A DNA stretch of 64,000 bases from Artemia franciscana (lineage: Eukaryota; Arthropoda; Branchiopoda; Anostraca; Artemiidae). Below the pieces are notes generated by a model. The model had not been told where the DNA came from. It saw only the letters and a list, made by a program, of their open reading frames with translations, and made no database searches. Both the position numbers and the translations under genes were made by a program. How positions within the stretch are numbered: the stretch's first letter is position 1; every line of letters begins with the position of its first letter. This document shows, piece by piece, positions 997-61,724 of the stretch. The stretch spans positions 43,595,152 to 43,659,151 of the forward strand of contig NC_088865.1 in NCBI RefSeq assembly GCF_032884065.1, written 5' to 3'.

Positions 997-1460
997 CTGT
1001 GTCACCATCGTCATTTATATATCCCCCTGAGCCCCCCGGCGTCCCTGTTGTAGTTGTGTCCCTGTGTCCCGGTCGCCATTTATATTCCATGTGTCCCGGT
1101 CGTCATTTGTGTCCCGGTGTCCCAGTCTGTGATTTCTCTTTGAGGGTCCCGGGCTTCATTTATATTCCTTGTGTCCCGGTGTCCCGGTCGTCATTTGTGT
1201 CCCGGTCTGTATATACATTCGTTTTTGAATTGGTCTTTTTTTTAGGTTTTAGTTTTTTACCTTTTTTTAGTTTTTTTAGTTATACCTCATGATTCTAATG
1301 ATTGCCCTTGAGCTTTGTTGATGGTGATTGCTAATCGAACATTCCCTGTGTCCCCGTCGTCATTTATATATCCCCCTGTGCCCCCCAGCGTCCCCGTTGT
1401 AGTTGTGTCCCTGTGTCCCGGTCGTCATTTATATTCCCTGTGTCCCGGTATAAATTTTTG
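932..1460 (-). repeat. 349-bp tandem duplication containing GGGACAC minisatellite
   Basis: The segment beginning TATACCTCATGATTC at 932 recurs at 1281, with a shorter third piece near 1770. Each copy pairs a helicase scrap (the reverse complement of ATTAGCAATCACCATCAACA) with degenerate tandem copies of a roughly 27-36 bp unit. On the plus strand the unit reads GTCCCGGTCGTCATTTATAT followed by TCCCTGT. Confidence 0.75.
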
Positions 1461-1740
1461 TATTTTCCCCTTTTTTCTTTTTAGTTTTTTTTGGGTTTTT
1501 ACTTTTTTTTTAGTTTTTTTAGTTTTTTTTCTTTTTTCTTTTTATTTTTTTTTATTTTTTTTAGTTTTGTTTTTCTCCTTTATTTTTCATTTTTTTCCTT
1601 TTTTATTTTTTTCTTTTTTAGTTTTTTTAGCTTTTTAGCTTTTTTAGTGTTTTTATTAGTTTTTAGTTTTTGTTTTCTTTTTAGTTTTTTTGTAGTTTTT
1701 ACCTTTTTTAGTTTTTTAATTTTTTTTACTTATGTCCTGG
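1215..1740. repeat. T-rich low-complexity tracts
   Basis: Long runs of T are broken by short AG, AC and C steps, with a recurrent TTTTTAGTTTTTTACCTTTT pattern. Similar tracts lie at 19575-19640, next to a tRNA-like sequence, and at 20020-20085. On the opposite strand they are A-rich, like SINE or retroposon tails. Phe/Ser-rich open frames here are compositional. Confidence 0.7.
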
Positions 1741-2039
1741 TCGTCATTTATACTCCCTGTGTCCCGGTGCTTTGTTGATGGTGATTGCTAATCGAACATT
1801 CCTTGTGTCCCGGTCGCTTTCTCTTTGAGTGTCCCGGTCGTCATTTATATTCCCTATGTGCCGGCGTCCCGGTCGTCATTTGTGTCCCGATGTCCCGGTC
1901 TGTAATTTCGTCAGTCAAAACATGACGTCAGTCGACACAGAAACATGACGTCACCTGACAGACAGACACACAGACAGACAACTTATTTTTATATATATAT
2001 AGATATACATATCTTCTATATATATAAAAATAAGTTGTC

Positions 2040-2177
2040 TGTCTGTGTGTCTATCTGTCAGGTGACGTCATGTTTCTGTGTCGACTGACGTCATGAAGTT
2101 AGTTGTCGTCATTTTTGCTATGACGGTGACGTCATTAAAGACATTTAAGACATATATATTCACGTAGAAATCTATTA
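2040..2177 (+). promoter_or_regulatory. Helitron 5' leader with three TGACGTCA sites
   Basis: TGACGTCA occurs near 2064, 2087 and 2129, just upstream of the Rep-helicase start. The inverted neighbour has two more (near 1921 and 1943), so the head-to-head junction forms a symmetric cluster. Regulatory use is inferred from the motif alone. Confidence 0.5.
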
Positions 2178-5100
2178 ATGTTTAAGTTTAAAATGACTGA
2201 TGAACTTACAATGGCAAAAGCCGATGAAGATGCTCAAAGAGTCTATGCCAAAAAACTTGCTGCTGATAGAGAAAGTCAGAAAAGAAAGCGTGCCGAGGAA
2301 TCAAAAGAACAGCAAGGAAACAGGCTTGAGGCTGATAGAGAAAGAAAGAACAGAAAGCGTGCCGAGGAACTACCAGAGCAACGCGAAAGCAGACTTGCTG
2401 CTAAAAGAGAAAGTGAAAAAATAAGGCGTGCCGAGGAATCACAAAAACAGCAAGAAATCAGGCTTGCTGCTGATAGAGAAAGCAAGAAAAGAAAGCGTGC
2501 CGAGGAATCACAAGAACAGCAAGAAATCAGGCTTGCTGCTGATAGAGAAAGTAAGAAAAGAAAGCGTGCCGAGGAATCAGAGCAACCTGAAAGTTATCGC
2601 CTGGCATTCAGGAACAGCCCAGTCGATGATTATAGCTTGAGTAGGTGTGTTCAAATCGGGACAATGTCTAAAATTTGTCCCTATTGCAAGGCCTTGAAAT
2701 TCAATGGTGAAACAATGGGAATGTGTTGCGCCTCAGGAAAAGTTAAACTTCCTCTATTGGCTGCACCACCAGAGCCATTGAAGACTTTCCTTACTGGAAC
2801 TACGTCAGAATCTAAGCGTTTTTTGTCACAAATCAGAAAATTCAACTCATGTTTCCAAATGACGTCGTTTGGAGCCCAAATCGAAAATCCAGATCAATTT
2901 ATGTCTACTTTCAAAGTAAAAGGGCAAATTTATCATAGAGCAGGGTCCCTTCTACCATTCTCAGGCGAGAATCATAAATTTTTACAATTGTACTTCATCA
3001 GTGATAGAAATTCTGAATTGAATGCACGTTGCGAAATTTCTCCCAACTTTGAAAGGACAATCGTTTCCCAATTGCAACATCTTTTCCACGAAAATAATAA
3101 TTTAGTGCGTCTGTTCAAAACAGCCATCGATTTGATGCCTACTGATACGCATAAAATTGTTATTTCCGCTGACAAAACGCCTCCTGGCCAACATGTGCGT
3201 AGATACAATGCTCCAACTATCGACGAAGTGGCAATCGTTATGGTCGGTGATCAGTTTTTACCTCGAGATATTATTCTTCATAAGCGAAACGCTCAGTTGT
3301 TAAGAATTGCTGAAACTCATCGATGCTACGATGCCCTACAATATCCTATCATTTCTTGGGATGGAGCCGACGGCTATCACTTTAGTATTAAATTGATGAA
3401 TCCAGCCACTAACAAAGAAATGAATAAGAAATGCAGTGCAATGCATTATTATTCCTATAGACTAATGATTCGGCAGGATGAAGAAAATTATATTTTAAAA
3501 TGCCGTGAATTGTTTCACCAATTTGTCGTTGATATATATGCTAAAATTGAATCAGAACGTTTGCTATATATCCGCCTGAATCAGACCAAGCTCCGCTTTG
3601 AACAATACATTCATTTGCGAGATGCAGTTATAAATGACGGTAATACCACAAACGTTGGAAGATTAACAATTTTACCTTCGTCATATGCTGGCAGTCCCCG
3701 TCATATGCATGAATATACTCAAGATGCTATTGTGTATGTTCATCTCTATGGTCGTCCAGATTTATTTATTACATTTACATGTAATCAATCTTGGGACGAG
3801 ATACTGCAGCTTTTACTTCAAGGACAATCGGCGGTTCATAGGCATGACATTACGGCCCGTGTCTTCCGCCAAAAGTTGAAATCACTGACAAACTACATAG
3901 TACAACTTGAACTGTTTGGGTCAGTGCGATGCTGGATGTACTCAGTGGAATGGCAAAAACGAGGTTTGCCACACGCACATATACTAATCTGGCTACATAA
4001 AAAAATTACTTCGAACGAAATTGATGATGTGATTTCCGCTGAAATACCTGATAAAAATGTCGATAAGGGGTTACATGATATTATTGTAAAAAATATGATA
4101 CATGGACCTTGCGGTGCACTGAACGAAAATTCACCATGCATGGCCAAAGGATGGTGCACAAAGCAATATCCTCGATTTTTAGTATCCAACACAATTACTG
4201 GCAATGATGGTTACCCACAATATAGAAGAAGGTCTACTGAAGATGGCGGTAAAACAGCAATAATAAAGAAGCGTAACGGTACCACCATCGAAGTAGATAA
4301 CCAGTGGGTTGTTCCATATTCCCCATTATTATCAAAAACATTTAATGCACACATAAACGTTGAATACTGTAACTCCGTAAAGGCAATCAAATACATATGT
4401 AAATACGTCAACAAAGGCAGTGACATGGCAGTTTTTGGCTTGCAGCCCGAAATCAAAGATTTCGACGAAATCGTACAATATCAGGCTGGAAGATACATAA
4501 GCAGTAATGAAGCTGTTTGGCGAATTCTTTCATTTCCGATACATGAACGTAGTCCAGCTGTTGTTCACTTAGCGGTACATTTACAGAATGGTCAACGTGT
4601 TTATTTCTCGGAAACCAACGTGCAACAAAGAGCCCTGAATCCACCGGATACAAAATTAACAGCTTTTTTTTCGCTTTGCAAAAATGATTCTTTTGCAAAA
4701 CAGCTGCTGTATACTGAAGTGCCTTCGTATTACACGTGGAATACTAAAAATAAAGTATTTGAACGTCGAAAACAGGGTAAGTCAGTCGACGGCCAACCTA
4801 CCATCTTCAAAGATACCACGATAGGAAGACTCTACACCGTTCACCCCAATCAACATGAATACTTCTTTCTACGCCTGCTTTTGGTGAATGTACCCGGTCC
4901 GACATCCGTTGAGTATTTGAGAACTGTAAACGGTACTATACATGACACTTACCGTAGTGCATGCCAAGCTCTGAATTTATTGGAGAATGACCAACACTGG
5001 GATAACCACATCAATGACGCGTGCGAAACGTCAACCCCAAGTCAAATTCGTGCATTGTTTGGCATCATTTTAACAACTTGCTCTCCATCAGCTCCTACAG

Positions 5101-28900: not shown

Positions 28901-31900
28901 GTGTAATAACATGAGAATACAAAAGTTTGTTACGTAAGCTAATTTATAAGTTACGTATATCTTTTACTAATAAGAACATTCTTAAGAAAATAAAAGTTCT
29001 AGCTGCCTTTTTAAGTAACCAAAAAATTGGAGGGCAACTAGGCTTCCTCCCCCGCTCCTTTTTTTCTCAAAATCGTTCGATCAAAACTATGAGAAAGCCA
29101 ATTAGCCAAAAAAAAAATGCAAATTTTGTTTTAATTATTCCTCTGCGGAGAGCCAAAATCAAAACATGCATTGATTGAAAAACGTTCAGAAATTAAATTA
29201 AAAAAAAACAAGTTTTTTTGACTGAAAGTAAGGAGCGACATTAAAACTTAAAACGAACAGAAATTACTTCGTATATGAAAGGGGCTGCTTCCTCATCAAC
29301 GCCCCGCTCTTTACGCTAAACTTTTTTTTACTGTTTTAGAAAGTAGAGTTGAGAGAAAGAGTCAAACTTTAGCGTAAAGAGCGGGGCGTTGATGAGGAAG
29401 CAGCTCCCTTCATCTACAAAGTAATTTCTTTTCGGTTTAAGTATTACTGTCGCTCCTTACTTTCAATTAAAAAAAACTGTTTTTTATATATAATCAGTTA
29501 AAGAAGTATATGGGTATATGGGTATAGAAGTTGAACCGAATGACGGAGATACTAGTGACTCGGATGAATTTTACTTTAAGTTACAGGAGCAAATAGACAG
29601 GGTCCCAGTTAGAAATATGATGTTTTTATTAGGAGATTTTAACGCCTATGCTGGTAGAAATTAGGATAGATGGTATCCTAGCCTAGGTAAATTTGGTGCA
29701 GGAAAAGAAAACAATAATGGCTACAGACTTATGCAATTTTTTAGGTATAACAATCTAGTTGTAACCAATACCGTGTTTGGTCATAAAACAGTATATAACT
29801 GGACATGGTATTCACGTGATGGTAAGACAGCAAACCTTACTGATTATGTTATAGTAAACCGAAGACTGGCAGGATCAATTCAAGATACTAGGGTATATAA
29901 GGGTGCTGTTATTGAAGTTAAAGGTAAAAATCACCATCTAGCATTGTCTAGGGTTAATTTAAAGCTGAAATTTCGCAAGGGTAACTACCTTCCAGGAAGT
30001 TACTATGTTGGTAGACTCCAGGATGAGAATTTGAGAGAAAATTTCCAGGAACAGTTGAATACTAAACTTGAGAGTTTAAAATTTGACAATGTGGAAGATG
30101 GTTGGAATAATTTTAGGAAATCAATTTGTGAAATTGCTGATGGTGTCTTAGGGAGAAGGGTTGAGACTGTAGCTAGAAATATTGGTGAAAAAGATTTATG
30201 TTTAAAAGAGAGGAGAAGGGGTTTGTATAACAATTATCTGAGTGATAGATCAAGTGAAAACAAATTGAATGCAAAAAAAGTGGAGAAAGTATTAAAATAT
30301 GAAATAAGGAGGTGTGAAGTGAAGGCCATGGATAAAATTGACGAGGATCCGGAAGATGCAGCTAGACGACATAATAGTAAAATATAGCACTGAATTGTTA
30401 ATAAACTGAGAGGGACTAGTCAATCCGGACATGTCCTAGTTAAAGATAAGAACGGGCCACAATTATTAATAAGGAAGAGTTAAAGAGAGATGGGTGGAAC
30501 ATTTTGAGAATGTGCTAAACCGAGATACAGTTGCAGGGAAAGATATAGAGGAAAATGAAAAAGTTTGTGATGCCTTGTATGAGAAGGAAGATTTGTTTTT
30601 GTGAGGAAATATTAGTAACAGTAATAAAAAGAATAAAAAAAAGGCTCCGGGTGCTGATAGTGAGGTAAATGAGTTTAGAAGGGTGGCTCTGAGGTTATAA
30701 ATAAGTTACTGAAGAATATGAATATGATTTTTGAAAAAGTGGAAGTACCTAACGATTTTAGGAAAACCTTAATTAGACGACTGTATAAGAATATTGATGA
30801 GAGTGAGTGTCATAATTATCGAGGAATTAGTCTGGTCTCTGTAGATAGCAAATTACTTAGTGTTATGAGAATTTTTAGACTGAGAGATGCTGTAGACAAA
30901 GTTTCAAGAGAAACCTAGTACGGTTTTAGAAAAGGTGGAGTATGTTTCGACCGAATATTTACTCTTATGTCAATAATTGAGAAATGCCTTAGTTGCCAGA
31001 CGAATTTGTTCCTTCAGACGTTTTACAGATTATGAGCAAGCGTTCAATTCTGCTGATAAAAGAGCTTTAACAAAGGTCTTATCCTTGTATGGTATACCAG
31101 ACAAATACATTAAAGTGATTAGTAATGTGTACGAGAATAACACTGCTGCGGTTAAGGTAAGAAATGAAGTTAGCAGTTGGTTTTGTATTGAATGGCGAGT
31201 TAAGCAGGGCTGTGTTCTATCCCCCTTTACATTGACCATTTTGATGGACTTTGTCTTAAGGAGCACAGGAGAGGCAATGGGAAACCACGGAATCAAATAA
31301 GGAGGAAAAAACTCTCCCGGACTTAGATTATACAGACGATTCAAGCATCCTAGATGAAAGTTTGAACAAAATGAATCAACTTTTAGAGTTTTGCGAGTTC
31401 ATGGTGCTAGCAAAGGTTTGAAAATGAAATTTAAGAAGACTAAGTCACTAAGGTTAGGAATAAGTGAAGATGAAAAGGTGACGTTGGGTAACGAAAGGAT
31501 TGATCAGGTGGGCAGCTTCACTTGTCTTGGTAGTATTATTAGCAAAGGCTGCGGGAGCAGTGAAGGTATTAGAAATAGAATAGCCAAGGCTCAGGGTGTC
31601 TTTTCACACTTAAAAAATAGTTTGGAAGAATAAGAAGATAAGCCTGCAAAATTAAAAAAATTAAAACATTGGAAGATCAAGTGATGAAAGTGGCCAAAAA
31701 TGGCTCTGAAGCATGGGTGCTCCAAAAAGCGGAAGAAGATTTACTAGTTGTATCCAGAGAAATTGCACGCGGATTGTTCTGGATAGCCGGCTGACTGACC
31801 GTATTCCAAACAGTAGGTTTGTACGAAAAATGTGATGCAATCCCACTTTCTAAGGCTATAATGAAAGAAGGGTTGAGGCAGCTAAGGCAAACTCTGTGGA

Positions 31901-35876: not shown

Positions 35877-37295
35877 GAATAATCAAACAGTTCGTGGTAA
35901 CGAAGTGTAGTAAGGAGCGACCCGGCTCAATAGTAACCAAAACTCTAAAAAATGGAATTTTGATACCAATAGCTACATCAAAAGTATCGCATTTTAATGC
36001 TGATTTTAAATATATAAGTTTCATCAACTTTAATCTTACCCGTCAAAAGTTACGAACCTGATGAAATTTGCCTTATTTTAGTAAATAGGGGGAAATACCC
36101 CCTAAAAGCCATAGAATATTAACGAAAATCACACCATCAGATTCAGCGCATCAGAAAACCCTACTGAAGAAGTTTCAAGTTCCTATCTACAAAAATGTGG
36201 AATTTTGTATTTTATATTTTAAGAGGGCTCATTCTAACGGAAATGAAAAGTTCTAGTGCCTTTTTAAGTGACCAAAAAATTGGAGGGCACCTAGGCCCCC
36301 TCCCACGCTAATTATTTTCCCAAAGTCAACGGATCAAAATTATGAGATAGCCATTTTATTCAGCGTAGTCGAAAAACCTTATAACTATGTCTTTGGGGAC
36401 GACTTACTCCCCCACAGTCCCCGTGGGAGGGGCTACTAGTTACAAGCTTTGACTAGTGCTTACATATAGTAATGGTTATTGGGAAGTGTACAGGCGTTTT
36501 CAGGAGGATTTTTTGGTTGGAGGCAGGGGTTGAGAAAAGGGGGATATGCTGGAAGAACTTTCCATCGAGGAATTTGTCATGGGGGAAGTAAATTTCCATG
36601 AAGGGAGCGCAGGATTTACTAGCATTACTTAAAAAAAAAACAATGAAAAAATAAATATGAAAAAGTTTTTTTTCAGCTGGAAGTAAAAAGCAGTATTAAA
36701 ACTTAAAACGTACAGAAATTATTACCCATATGAGGGGCTCACCTCCTCCTAATACCTCGCTCTTTACGCTAAAGTATTTTTAGTAATTTTAACTATTTAT
36801 TCTGCGGCTTTTGTGATTCAGGGGTCATTCTTAATGAATTGGGACAAAATTTAAGCTTTAGCGTAAAAAGCGAGGTACTGATGAGGAATCGAACCCCCCC
36901 CCCCCCATATATGTAATAAAAACATGAGAATACAAAAGTTCTTTACGTAAGCTAATTTATAAGTTACGTTTATCTTTTACTAATAAAAAGATTCGTAAAA
37001 AATCAAAAGTTCTAATTGCCTTTTTAATTAAACGAAAATCGGAGGGCAACTAGGCTTCCTCCCCCACCCTTTTTTTCTCAAAATCATTCGATCAAAATTA
37101 TGAGAAAGCCATTTAGCCAAAAAAAAATAAATATGCGAATTTTGTTTTAATTATTCCTCTGCGGAGAGCCAAAATCAAAACATGCATTGATTCAAAACGT
37201 TCAGAAATTAAGTATAAAAAAAACAAGTTTTATTTAACTGAAAGTAAGGAGCGACATTGAAAGGTAAAACGAACAGAAATTACTTCGTATATGAT

Positions 37296-37850
37296 TAGTC
37301 CAGGACTTTTAGGGTTTGACCCGGACAAAATTGCAATATAAACTAAAATGGTACCAAAATGATCAGAAAAAATTCTGTACAACATACTAAAAGTCCCCAT
37401 AAATCCGAGTGGGGCGAGTAACCGAAAAACAGGGGAAAAGGGGGAAATGCGGGGGAAAATGGGAAAAATGCCGAACATGCCCAGAATATAGTTTAAAGTG
37501 AGTTTTCTGGGGTTTTCACATACGCTGATTACGAAATTGACATCTAAAATTCAGTATAGAAAAAGAGTACTACGGAAAACGGGGGAACAGGGGAAAGAGG
37601 GGAGAAAAGAGAAGAATACAGGGTAGGGGTAGAAAGCGGTTTGAAAGATATTTTCTGGGGTATTCCTATCTGGTGATTACGAAATTGAGAAATAAAATGA
37701 TATAAAAAAATCGATTAACATAAAACGGGGAAATGGGGGGGGAGGGGAAAAGGGAAATATACAGGGTAGGGGTAGAAAGCATGTGGAAATGTGTTTTCTG
37801 GGGTTTTTCTATCTGCTGATCACGAAACTGACCCCTAAAATGAAGGAAAG
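37296..37850 (+). repeat. Left long terminal inverted repeat
   Basis: Matches 40325-40888 inverted. Contains recurrent blocks of about 150-190 bp, each with TTTTCTGGGGT, TGATTACGAAATTGA and an A/G-rich run (GGGGAAAGAGG type). Two also contain ACAGGGTAGGGGTAGAAAGC. Confidence 0.8.
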
Positions 37851-38143
37851 AAAACGAGAACCATGAAAACCAAACAAAACTGGAGGAAACAACGGAAAAG
37901 GGGAAGGGAAGCCTGACTCCTGAGCCAGCTGCTAATGGCTAATAAGTAGGCCTATGGACAAAATAACTCGCTTAAGTATCAAACTTGTACTTTCTTGAAT
38001 CACAGACATTTCTTACAACCATTTGAATTACTAAACATAAAGAAAACAACCGCTTGGCAGTTATATATAAAATGGCTATTATATGTAAAATTTGCACTTT
38101 CGAAGGCAGTATAGTTGACTTGAAAAACACAGCATTGATATCA

Positions 38144-39609
38144 CTAGTCGAGCTCCTCGTCTTCGACAATCTCGTTGTCCCTGTTCAAACAGTTGATACC
38201 CCGACATTCTCCGCACGCGAACGTACACGCTAGTCCATTTTTCTTGCAGCTGCATCGCGAGTTCTCGCAGCCTGTCTTATAGTTGCATCTCACGACACTC
38301 AAAAGAGTCTGAGGTGCGGGCAACAAATGGGTCATCACAGGTGAGTATTTATGGTCTCTGAGGACCCAACCCCAGTCAGCCGGGTCGAGGTCAGCTGGTT
38401 CCCCTTTCCAACGGGATACCTGGAGGCGCACTCGCTGGGAGTGGAATGAAGCTGCAGCTTCGGTTGGCGGAAGCCTTTCAGGCTTAACAAACACCGTAGT
38501 ATTAGACGAAGAAACTTTTTCCAAGAAAATTCGATGTCGCAGCTTAGTGAGATCTTCGTTTGGTCGTGCTTTATACAAGCTGAGGAGAAGATATTCACCC
38601 GCTTTCACAATTTCATCTTTGGACGATGATTCATCCAGAAACACTTTGCATTTTTTTCTGAACATTTCGCTCTTCTTCAAAAGAGGTAGCACAGCTTGCT
38701 TTCCAAGTCCGAAAACTCGTGAGGTCGTGTCACATCCCAAGAGTGCGTGCCCTACCAGAAGCAGCCTGGATACTTCTCCCATTTTTTTTTTGCACTTCGT
38801 TGAGGCACCAGAACCGTGTTATCGCTTCTTTTGCGTTCGTTGACGATTCGAAGTAAAGTGTTTTTGCATTAGGCGGGAGGTGATACAAGAGTAGAATCAG
38901 AAGGTCAGTGTCGTTGCCAAGAACTATTGTTTCAGAGTTTTCTGCTTTCGTTACGGCAGTCTTCACGATTAGATAGTCAGCATCGTCCTTCGCATGGACG
39001 ACTTCAAATCCTTTGGCTCTGAGTTTTTCCCCGATGTAGCTTATAATTCGCTGTTTGTTCTGAGAGTTGCTCAAAAACTCTTCCTTCTTTTTCTGGAGCT
39101 TCATCCCTAAACTGAAATCGATCACTTGATGCTGGCTTCCCTTACACCGTCGGTTGTGCGTAGCATCTTTCGTGGTTGTACCAGCGCTGTATCCATCGAA
39201 GACAACAGTAGGGGAGGTACAGCGTCGAGTAACGAAATTAACATAGCTGTCACAGATTGAATCATAAGTAACACCAATCTTCCAAGGTACTTGCTGAAGC
39301 AGCCAACCTCCGTCAACTACAGTGACACGATCTGACACTGGCAGGTGGTGAATCGAGTCCGTGTTTGCTTCTTTCCATATTGCTTTCGCTAGTGCAGGTT
39401 TGTCTGGCTGACGCATTATGCCAGTATTCTCAAACAAAGCGGGCGGATAACTGCACAGTTCGTAACGTAGAGTTTCTGCCATGTCATTTTCAGATGTATG
39501 GGCAGCAGTCGAAAGACGTTGAAAAAGCATCGCTTGATGCTTTTGATTTGTCATCATCGCTTGATATGTCCTGCTGACAAAGAATGCAGAGTCTGTTGGA
39601 GCCACTCAT
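38144..39609 (-). pseudogene. FEN1/XPG-like nuclease with C-terminal CXC-like motif, frameshifted
   Basis: Two overlapping minus-strand frames, 39605-38730 and 38782-38144, meet at a run of ten A (38782-38791); nine would fuse them. The first has VTVVDGGWLL with D98, VVFDGYSAG with D137, DDADYLIV with D208/D210 and VLGNDTDLLILLL with D232/D234, the acidic sites of FEN/XPG/PIN-like 5' nucleases. The second opens with HALLGCDTTSRVFGLGKQAV, which mirrors the LLGCDY...GIGPKRA helix-two-turn-helix of FEN1. It ends in a cysteine cluster (C166 to C198: CNYKTGC, CSCKKNGLACTFACGEC) resembling a tesmin/TSO1 CXC fold. Another frame, 39609-39490, encodes MSGSNRLCILCQQDISSDDD and may be the true N-terminus, shifted near 39500. 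Combined length about 475-500. Function in the element is unknown; flap or hairpin DNA cleavage is plausible. Confidence 0.75.
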
Positions 39610-40324
39610 CTTGCACTGAAAGAGAAGAGCAGCTTAGTTTCGGTAAAAATAGGACAGATACCTTGAATCTCACCTCTCCATGACATGAAAATTTTCCACT
39701 TCTGATACAGCAGCAGGGTTTCCAAAGAGCTTTATCTTTCATCAGCACCATTCGCACGGCGAACGTAACTCTCTAAATGAATTCTGAACCTTCCAAATGG
39801 CGCGCCATCTCGAAAGACCGTCTCGGAAAACAAGCTGAAAAACTAGATGCCGCTCTTGCTTAATCTTGACAAAACGCAACTAATAACCATTAATTCGGGC
39901 ACCCAGGGAAAATAATGAATTAAACTTGGCTTAGTACTGAAAGAAGAGTTGCCGATACGCAAAATTATGCTTGACTTAAAAAAAAATCTCGTCGTACCTT
40001 GATTTATCCTGCTACCATGTCACAGGTGTAAGCATCCACGCAGACTGGGGACTATTGGATCCGCTAGATGTCATTCCGTCAGGATAGGTTTTGCCGTCGG
40101 CACTGGAACTCCGCGGTGACTAGTCTACCTTGCTTCTCTTACTGGATGTCGAATTAGAACAGGATTATGTTGACGAACCCACGCGCTTGTCGATAACGGC
40201 GAGGAATACGGAATAATGTAATTTCAGTATTTTTCCGTATTTCTTTCTCGAATTTTTTTTTGCCTTTTCCGAACCTATGGGGTAGCCGAACCTCTATAGA
40301 TCTCCTGTATTTGTTCTCGAACTT
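39610..40324. other. Transposon interior upstream of the nuclease gene
   Basis: Non-coding on both strands as far as I can read; the likely place for the promoter of the minus-strand gene. A GGCGCGCC site lies near 39800. No conserved motif recognised. Confidence 0.4.
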
Positions 40325-40888
40325 TGTTTTAGATGTCAATTTTATAATCAGCAGATAGAAAAACCCTAGAAAACACATTTCCACATGCTTTCTACCCCTA
40401 CCCTGTATATTTTCCTTTTCCCCCTCCCTCCCCCCCCCATTTCCCCGTTTTATGTTAATCGATTTTTGTATATCATTTTATATCTCAATTTCATAATCAC
40501 CAGATAGGAATACCCCAGAAAATATCTTCCAAACCGCTTTCTACCCCTACCCTGTATTCTTCTCTTTTCTCCCCTCTTTCCCCTGTTCCCCCGTTTTCCG
40601 TAGTACTCTTTTTCTATACTGAATTTTAGATGTTAATTTCGTAATCAGCGTATGTGAAAACCCCAGAAAACTCACTTTAAACTATTTTCTGGGCATGTTC
40701 GGCATTTTTCCCATTTTCCCCCGCATTTCCCCCTTTTCCCCTGTTTTTCGGGTACTCGTCCCACTCAGATTTATGGGGACTTTTAGTATGTTGTACAGAA
40801 TTTTTTTCTAATCATTTTGGTACCATTTTCGTTTATATTGCAATTTTGTCCGGGTTCGACCCTTTTTTGAGCTAAAAGTCCTGGACTA
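40325..40888 (-). repeat. Right long terminal inverted repeat
   Basis: Inverted counterpart of 37296-37850, with the same subrepeats and scattered mismatches and small indels. Confidence 0.8.
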
Positions 40889-40975
40889 GATAGGGGCTGC
40901 TTCCTCATCAACGCCCCGCTCTTTACGCTAAAGTTTTTTACTGTTTTAAAAAGAAAAATTGAGAGAAAGAGTCAA

Positions 40976-48255: not shown

Positions 48256-49640
48256 TGGCCTCTCAAACAGTTCGTGGTGACAAACTGTAGTAAGGAGTGA
48301 CCCGGCTCAATAGTAGCTGAAACTCAAAAAATAGTAATTTTGATACTAATGGTTACAAGAAAAGAATTGTATTTTATTGCTGATTTTAAACATGTAACTT
48401 TCATCCAATTTAGTCTTACCCAGCAAAACTTACGAGCCTGAAAATATTTGCCTTATTTTGGAAAACACCCCTTAAAAATAATAGAATCTTAACTAAAATC
48501 ACCACCGCATTCAGCGTATCAGAGAACCCCACTGTAGACGTTTTAAGCTCCTATCTACAAAAATGTGGATATTGGTATTTTTTTGCCAGAAGACCGATCA
48601 CGGGTGTGTTTTTTTTTTTGGTTATTGGGAAGCATACAGACGTTTTCAGGGGGATTTTTTTTTAGTTTGGGGGAGGGGAAGTTGAGGGAAGGGGTGTTAC
48701 ATGGGAGGATCTTTCTATAAAGAAATTTGCCATGGGGAAAGAAAATTTAAATGACGGGAATGCAGGATTTTCTAGCATTATTTAAAAAAAAACAAAAAAA
48801 AAATAAATATGAAAAGTCTTTTCAACTGAAAGTAAGGGACAGCATCAAAACTTAAAACGAACAAAAATGATTACGCATATGAGGGGTTCACCTCCTCTTA
48901 ATACCTCGCTCTTTACGCTAAAATATTTTTAATAATTTCAACTCTTTATTCTACGGCTTTTGTGATTCAGGGGTCATTCTTAAGGAATTGGGACAAAATT
49001 TAAGCTTTAGTGTAAATAGCGAGGTATTGACGGGAGGGGGGCTGAGCCCCCTCATAAACATAATAAAAACTTACGAATATAGAAGTTTGTTACGTAAGTC
49101 AATTCGTAAATTACGTATTTTTTTTTACTAATGACAACATTCGTAAAAAGTGAAAAGTTCTAGTTGCCTTTTTAACTAATCAAAAAAATTGGAGGGCGTC
49201 TAGGCGTCTTCCCCCACTCAATTTTTTATCAAAATCTACCGATTAAAACTATGAGAAAGCCATTTAGTAAAAAAAAAATATTAATATGCAGAATTCTCTT
49301 TGATTATTTATGTGCGGAGAGCCAAAATCAAAACATGCATTAATTTAAAAACGTTCAAAACATAAATTAAAAAAAAGTTTTTTTTCAACTAAAAGTAAGA
49401 AGCGACAATAAAACTTAAAACGATCAGAAATTACTCCATATATGTAAGAGGATTTTCCTCCTCAACGGCCCGCTCTTTACGCTAAAGTTTTTTACTGTTT
49501 TAAAAAAAGTACAGTTAAGAGAAAGAGTCAAATATTAGCGTAAAGAGCGGGGCGTTGAGGAGGAAAAGCCCCTTACATATACAGAGTAATTTCTGTTCGT
49601 TTTAAGTTTTAATGTTGCTTCTTACTTTCAGTTAAAAAAG
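48256..49640 (+). repeat. Family R repeat, near complete
   Basis: TCAAACAGTTCGTGGTGACA starts it. A diverged hairpin is at about 48820-49060 and the terminal hairpin at about 49385-49633 (arms with GGCCCGCTCTTTACGCTAAA and TTAGCGTAAAGAGCGGGGCG). Confidence 0.85.
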
Positions 49641-60122: not shown

Positions 60123-61724
60123 TCAAACAGTTCGTGGTAGCGAACTGTCGTAAGTAGCGACCTGGCTCAATGATAACCAAAAATCTAAAAAATAGAATTT
60201 TGATACCAAAAGCTACATCAAAGGAATTGTATTTTAATGCTGATTTTAAATATATCAGTTTTATCAAGTTTAGTCTCACCCATCAAAAGTTACGAGCCTG
60301 AGAAAATTTACCTTATTTTAGAAAATAGGGAGAAACAAGCCCCAAAAGTCATAAAACCTTAACGAAAATCACACCATCAGATTCAGCGTATCAGAGTACC
60401 CTATTGTAGAAGTTTCAAGCTCCTATCTACAAAAATGTGGAATTTCGCATTTTTTGCCAGAAGACAGATCACGGATGCGTGTTTATTTGTTGTTTTTTTT
60501 TTATGTTTTTTTCCAGGGGTGATCGTATCGATTCAGCGGTCCTAGAATGCCACGATATTGCTCATTCTAACGGCAATTATTCATGTGCGGTGACCCAAAA
60601 TCAAAACCTTTATCAAAAATATTCAGAAATTAAATTTAAAAAAACAAGTTTTTTTTACTGAAAGTAAGGAGTGACATTAAAACTTAAAACGAACAGAAAC
60701 TATTCCGAATATGAAAGGGGCTGTCCCCTCCTCAACGTCCCACTCGATACGCTAAAATATTTTATTTTTTTGAAAAATAGAACTGTGACTAAGAGTCAAA
60801 GTTTAGCGCAAAGAGCGGGACGCTGAGGAGGGGACAGTCCCTTTCGTATAAGAAATAATTTCTATTCGTTATAAGTCTTAATGTCACTCCTTACTTTCAT
60901 TTAAAAAAACTAGTTTTTTTTTATTTATTGCGTAGAGGAGAAATTTTCTGTGTTTGTATGTACCAATAAAAATGAAATATTTTGATGGTTTAGATCCCTT
61001 TCAGTCAGTTCTTGAACTTCAAGAACTGAACAAAATAATTCAACATTGGCATAGGTATTAAAAAAAAACAAAAAAAAAAAGACACGTTAGAATATATTTT
61101 ACGATGCAGAGATGAAGGAGTCCTCGGAAACGTATATTATATATTATTATAAGTATCTAATCGTTACGTAGAATAATTCGTAGTTATGTATATTTTTTAC
61201 TAATGAAAACGTTTAAAACATTATAAGTTATACTTGCCTTTTTAAATAACCAAAAACTTGGAGGGCAACTAAGCCTCCTCCCCTACTCCTTTCTTTCTCA
61301 AAATCTTCCGATTAAAACTATGAGAAAGCCATTTAGCCAAAGAAAATTAATATTTCAATTTCGTTTTAATTATTTATGTGCGGAGAGCCAAAATTAAAAC
61401 ATGCATTAATTCAAAACCGTTCAGAAATTAAATAAAAAAAAAGTTTTTTAACTGAATGTAAGGAGCGACATTAAAACTTAAAACGAACAGAAATTATTCC
61501 GTATTTGAAAGGGGCTTTTCCTCCTCAACGCCCTGCTCTTTACGCTAAAGTTTTTACTGTTTTAAAAAGTAGAGTTAGCTGAAAGAGTCAAACTTTAGCG
61601 TAAAGAGCGGGGCGTTGAAGAGGAAAATCCCCTTTCATATACGGAATAATTTCTGTTCGTTTTATGTTTTAATGTCGCTCCTTACATTCAGTTAAAAAAA
61701 ATTGTTTTTTTTTTATTTAATCAA
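60123..61724 (+). repeat. Family R repeat inserted in the LINE, with two hairpins
   Basis: Starts TCAAACAGTTCGTGGTAGCG. Hairpins are at 60660-60905 and 61448-61697. The first replaces the usual diverged hairpin, so this copy may be a composite of two. Confidence 0.8.

Follow-up and report, generated by a model that had tools for sequence, protein, structure and literature searches.

The element under study lies at positions 37296 to 40888 of a 64,000-nucleotide window from Artemia franciscana (contig NC_088865.1, positions 43,595,152 to 43,659,151), the window being the whole stretch of DNA that was analysed. It is a transposon copy with terminal inverted repeats (TIRs) and a target site duplication (TSD), and it carries the remains of a gene on the minus strand. 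Its features are as follows:

37293–37295, no strand: GAT target site duplication, left
37296–40888, no strand: whole element, an internally deleted copy of 3593 bp
37296–37845, plus strand: TIR at the 3' end of the gene, with internal repeats of approximately 70–75% identity
38144–38818, minus strand: second part of the XPG/FEN1-like nuclease (LLGCDTTSRVFGLGK) and the tail, in another frame
38189–38287, minus strand: cysteine-rich tail, CXC-like by eye only
38730–39605, minus strand: first part of the XPG/FEN1-like nuclease; for the majority of other copies, matching begins no earlier than residue 24
38782–38791, minus strand: run of ten A (T on the plus strand) at which the nuclease frame breaks; in-frame copies have nine A
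39490–39609, minus strand: remnant 5' end of the full-length gene; the ATG at 39609 gives 39 residues and then a stop, with 20 native residues preceding the deletion junction
39530–39544, no strand: deletion junction with approximately 15 bp of filler, at which positions 1344–4251 of copy L031 are absent
40322–40888, minus strand: TIR at the 5' end of the gene
40889–40891, no strand: GAT target site duplication, right

The initial annotation had described a TIR element with firm ends, a 3-bp GAT target duplication and a restored empty site, and all three were borne out. The termini form perfect 17-bp inverted repeats (37296–37312 and 40872–40888), beyond which the inverted arms continue as stretches of 62 nt (92%), 391 nt (96%) and 111 nt (88%), or approximately 550 bp overall, while GAT is present on either side of the element. 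For the empty site, both 300-bp flanks were joined with one GAT and compared with the rest of the window. The joined flanks matched across the junction at 28987–29368 (the best match, 90.5% over 389 columns), and further unoccupied sites were located at 61214–61594 (85.1%) and 49144–49532 (82.3%). Since several unoccupied repeat copies match across the junction, the insertion site is clean. The host repeat at the insertion (36996–37295, and also the three unoccupied sites) occurs at many places in the window, in either orientation. Additionally, both TIRs (37296–37845 and 40322–40888) contain direct repeats with a spacing of roughly 145 bp and 70–75% identity.

The locus had also been read as a single nuclease gene. 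The motifs VVDGG, VFDGY, KDDAD, NDTD and LLGCDTT are indeed contained in the minus-strand frames 39605–38730 and 38818–38144, but these are two frames, split at approximately 38782–38791, and they are part of a longer gene. In comparison with L031, a 6484-bp copy located elsewhere in the genome, the window copy lacks approximately 2.9 kb, representing nearly all of the N-terminus and middle region of the encoded protein; the nuclease forms the final third of this longer gene, the middle of which is deleted here. The filler at the deletion junction resembles sequence close by. As read from its sequence, the gene in the window is dead, its start codon yielding only 39 residues and the A run shifting its nuclease frame. 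We considered and rejected the idea that the copies share a frameshift here, perhaps a programmed one, as the run varied between 7 and 11 A across copies and nine A were found at 7 of 21 matched sites. A match to the window protein that begins at residue 1 and crosses the deletion junction (97%) was observed at C18:4870687–4871508, where at least one sister copy of the deleted form is probably located.

The assembly searched for related copies comprises 1.27 Gb in 6468 contigs. A search with the TIRs, in which 40 of 355 candidates were scored, returned the window at 100% and the other 39 places at 98–99%. A protein search with the window nuclease gave 135 matches, many of them inside longer open frames; near-identical copies mostly matched from residue 24 onward, while other families matched at 40–48% identity. 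Twenty copies of the window's own family (family A; L011–L030) were examined. Frames longer than 1000 residues occur at six places of family A, of which L031, L032 and L041 were examined as well (the remaining three being on C17, C182 and C13). L031 (6484 bp, TSD GTA) and L041 (6309 bp, TSD AAG) have the same ends as the window copy. In L041, a 1043-residue frame spans the nuclease, the tail and the greater part of the middle region; the N-terminal part is encoded upstream in a separate frame of 304 residues, and small internal deletions have removed short stretches that are present in L031. L032 contains a 1216-residue frame that takes in the end of the N-terminal part and extends into the nuclease, although one end of this element was not found. 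Summed from these overlapping frames (no family-A copy examined has the whole length in one frame), the protein comprises approximately 1450 residues, with a Cys/His-rich N-terminus, a middle region, the XPG nuclease and a cysteine-rich tail. Apart from the main protein, the only frame of at least 150 residues in L031 and L041 lies on the opposite strand and overlaps the nuclease region.

Both ends are present in 18 of the copies L011–L030 (L019 and L028 having one end only). A perfect 3-bp duplication was found in all 21 family-A copies in which both ends were read (20 copies and L041), a count that leaves out L019, L028 and L032, in which one end was missing or out of range. Positions 1826–3019 of L031 were kept in none of the copies L011–L030. 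Similarly, the stretch between residues D283 and E678 (L032 numbering) is whole in none of the 21 copies made up of the window copy and L011–L030, while the nuclease portion was judged by eye to be uninterrupted in 11 of them. Selective retention of the nuclease is not claimed here, as a central deletion explains this pattern by geometry. The long matches of the deleted copies are 96–99% identical, which indicates recent spread.

Two further families, with approximately 40% protein identity, display the same order of middle region followed by nuclease. In family B, these parts share one frame in L029 and L033, and the TIR was identified as 121 bp at 78.5%; both copies with two readable ends are flanked by a 3-bp TSD (L029, GTA; L034, CAT), whereas L033 and L035 are without one end. 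L029 (2216–7639) is a 5424-bp family-B element nested in a family-A copy as a clean insertion with the GTA duplication. In family C, the middle region is likewise followed by the nuclease. The family-B rows (L029, L033 and L034) and family-C rows (L036, L037, L039 and L040) are 35–44% identical to L032 in the middle-region alignment and 34–43% identical to L016 in the nuclease alignment, L035 (B) and L038 (C) being excluded from both.

To our reading, the nuclease is of the FEN1/XPG 5'-nuclease type, as predicted by a structure model, which was the only analysis that identified it. The model was built for the nuclease of L016 (433 residues, nine-row alignment), which is 92–93% identical to the window frames, rather than for the window frames themselves, and had a pTM of 0.68 and a mean pLDDT of 66.8 (below 50 in 141 of the 433 residues). 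A Foldseek comparison against the PDB gave six hits at E≤0.001, namely plastid exonuclease 1, FEN1, XPG, T5 D15, EXO1 and Rad2, all of them enzymes of the 5'-nuclease superfamily with probabilities of 0.99–1.00; GEN1, XRN1 and ExoIX followed as weaker hits. The superpositions of the six are loose (rmsd 11–25; TM-score by query length 0.27–0.35), and the FEN1/XPG reading stands on the consistent family of hits and on the acidic motifs, which are present in all three families. Thus, the FEN1/XPG plan proposed from the motifs of the window frames was supported by the predicted fold. Unlike FEN1, XPG, Rad2 and EXO1, which it resembles in model fold and acidic motifs, the domain is located within a transposon protein, has an additional cysteine-rich tail and shares 11–15% identity with the six best solved matches. 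Sequence searches against Pfam, NCBIfam and the PDB returned nothing convincing for any part of the protein; a weak match to XPG_I_2 (E 0.098, one of nine rows) scored below stray families. When viral contigs were searched with the family-B nuclease, no relative emerged. The CXC-like label given earlier to the tail was made by eye, no CXC-type (tesmin/TSO1-like) Pfam family being found at E≤1 for 38144–38818 of the window or for L034:3844–5181.

Across the middle region, families A, B and C have in common the motifs TIDG, TFDQP, GGFH and DLVIE, in the order D...D...GFH...E. Comparison of families A and B and the family-C copies L036, L037, L039 and L040, where readable, identified 239 invariant positions among the 1216 of L032, including D283, D428 and H459 in the middle region and D906, D1018, D1040, D1042 and D1100 in the nuclease. 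E678 is present in families A and B and in the family-C rows L037 and L040, and was not scored as invariant across the 1216 positions. In known eukaryotic transposases, a DDE core may be interrupted by a helical insertion ahead of its final acidic residue, and the order seen here would fit such an arrangement. The middle region is therefore read, from its conserved residues, as probably an RNase-H-like DDE transposase. Its structure model was poor (mean pLDDT 43.7), and a profile search of the PDB returned no chain at E≤5. The best long Pfam match, DUF6589, fell under the cut-off (E 0.0055; two of 12 rows) and was no better than the stray DUF2541 (E 0.004) in the same table. DUF6589 was consequently dropped as an anchor, being weak, confined to L031 and L032 and without a match in the family-B and -C frames tried; genome-wide, it gave three matches below the cut-off, all away from the family, and it was not mentioned in the literature searched. 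By eye, the N-terminus contains two clusters of Cys and His residues, with a probable role in binding DNA or zinc.

The AcademX nuclease is an XPG nuclease, Academ elements have a Cys8 region, and TIRs are a general feature of such transposons. In the present families, TIRs were found in the window copy and in family B, an element-encoded nuclease was identified by the structure model of L016, and the TSD was 3 bp in 21 of 21 family-A and two of two family-B copies. As far as the consulted part of the published account extends, Academ comprises two lineages: AcademX, with a nuclease and a TSD of 3 or 4 bp, and AcademH, with a helicase instead and a TSD of 9 or 10 bp (PMC10045372). The frames tried in the present analysis gave no helicase family. 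Family A is a probable AcademX family, an assignment that rests on the nuclease and the TSD length, with the lineage compared by description only. Like AcademX, it is a eukaryotic DNA transposon that encodes a nuclease and duplicates 3 bp of its target, and within that part of the account no difference was established, other than that the window copy is deleted and broken. We consider it highly likely that the locus belongs to a recently active cut-and-paste family of the AcademX type, whose full element encodes one protein of approximately 1450 residues, and that the window copy derives from such an element by deletion and is non-autonomous.

The alternative of a single-gene TIR transposon belonging to a different superfamily, or to one not yet described, with an XPG domain independent of Academ, would agree with the failure of every library to match the middle region convincingly, and with an assignment resting on nuclease and TSD length. 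We regard it as unlikely, as a nuclease together with a TSD of 3 or 4 bp is the AcademX pair in the portion of PMC10045372 consulted and recurred in no other superfamily within the small literature sample. The initial annotation had favoured an element carrying no gene other than a nuclease, which holds for the deleted window copy and fails for the family, L031, L041 and L032 encoding the longer protein. It had named larger elements with the same TIRs and a transposase as the observation that would count against it, and these have largely been found, in that the longer protein has a probable transposase region whose DDE fold is putative; the FEN/XPG fold, which was likewise put to structure prediction, was recovered in the L016 model. 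An autonomous element mobilised by its XPG nuclease itself could account for deleted copies, the window copy and several others, in which mainly the nuclease portion is retained, but it is very improbable given that the window gene is broken twice (in the frame of the start codon and at the ten-A run), that larger copies with the same TIRs encode the longer protein and that families B and C retain the middle region with the nuclease. The other suggestion made earlier, a non-autonomous element carrying a captured host FEN/XPG gene, is correct in its first half, the window copy being without the transposase region and its gene broken. Capture itself is scarcely credible even though that region is absent from the window copy, as L041, L032, L029 and L033 each encode the middle region and the nuclease as an in-frame fusion, and the nuclease is joined to this same region in three families and is common to other families at 40–48% identity.

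Under the preferred AcademX-type reading, the complete element (6484 bp, as in L031) would carry one apparently intronless gene for a four-part protein. This protein would bind the TIRs, its DDE site would make the cuts, staggered by 3 bp, and the joins, and its XPG domain would probably process the non-transferred strand, or trim or cut flaps or hairpins that arise as intermediates. The window copy probably lost its internal stretch in a process resembling interrupted gap repair, which left short filler at the junction. It would be movable only with protein from fuller copies; like their counterparts in other cut-and-paste families, deleted copies presumably move in trans. It is possible, and put forward tentatively, that the protein is a single-chain transposase with two nuclease active sites, in which DDE joins strands and XPG cuts the other strand or resolves flaps or hairpins at excision. 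We know of no established role for the XPG domain in such transposons. The apparent exception of a nuclease-only transposon is removed and replaced by a young family with near-full-length copies, and such a family, active not long ago and rich in deletion derivatives, represents suitable material for this question. If the two-active-site reading is true, the high copy number and youth of the family, with its deleted and palindromic derivatives, make it testable.

Palindromic derivatives, in which both halves come from the nuclease end in inverted orientation, were observed in three of 20 family-A copies (L011:6495–9601, L021:301–3509 and L026:301–3506), and the structure common to L021 and L026 was probably amplified. 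Common deletion breakpoints were also observed between L017 (6091–9601) and L024 (6100–9601), and between L014 (301–4090) and L015 (301–4206). Breakpoints common to such pairs suggest that some non-autonomous subfamilies probably multiplied after deletion.
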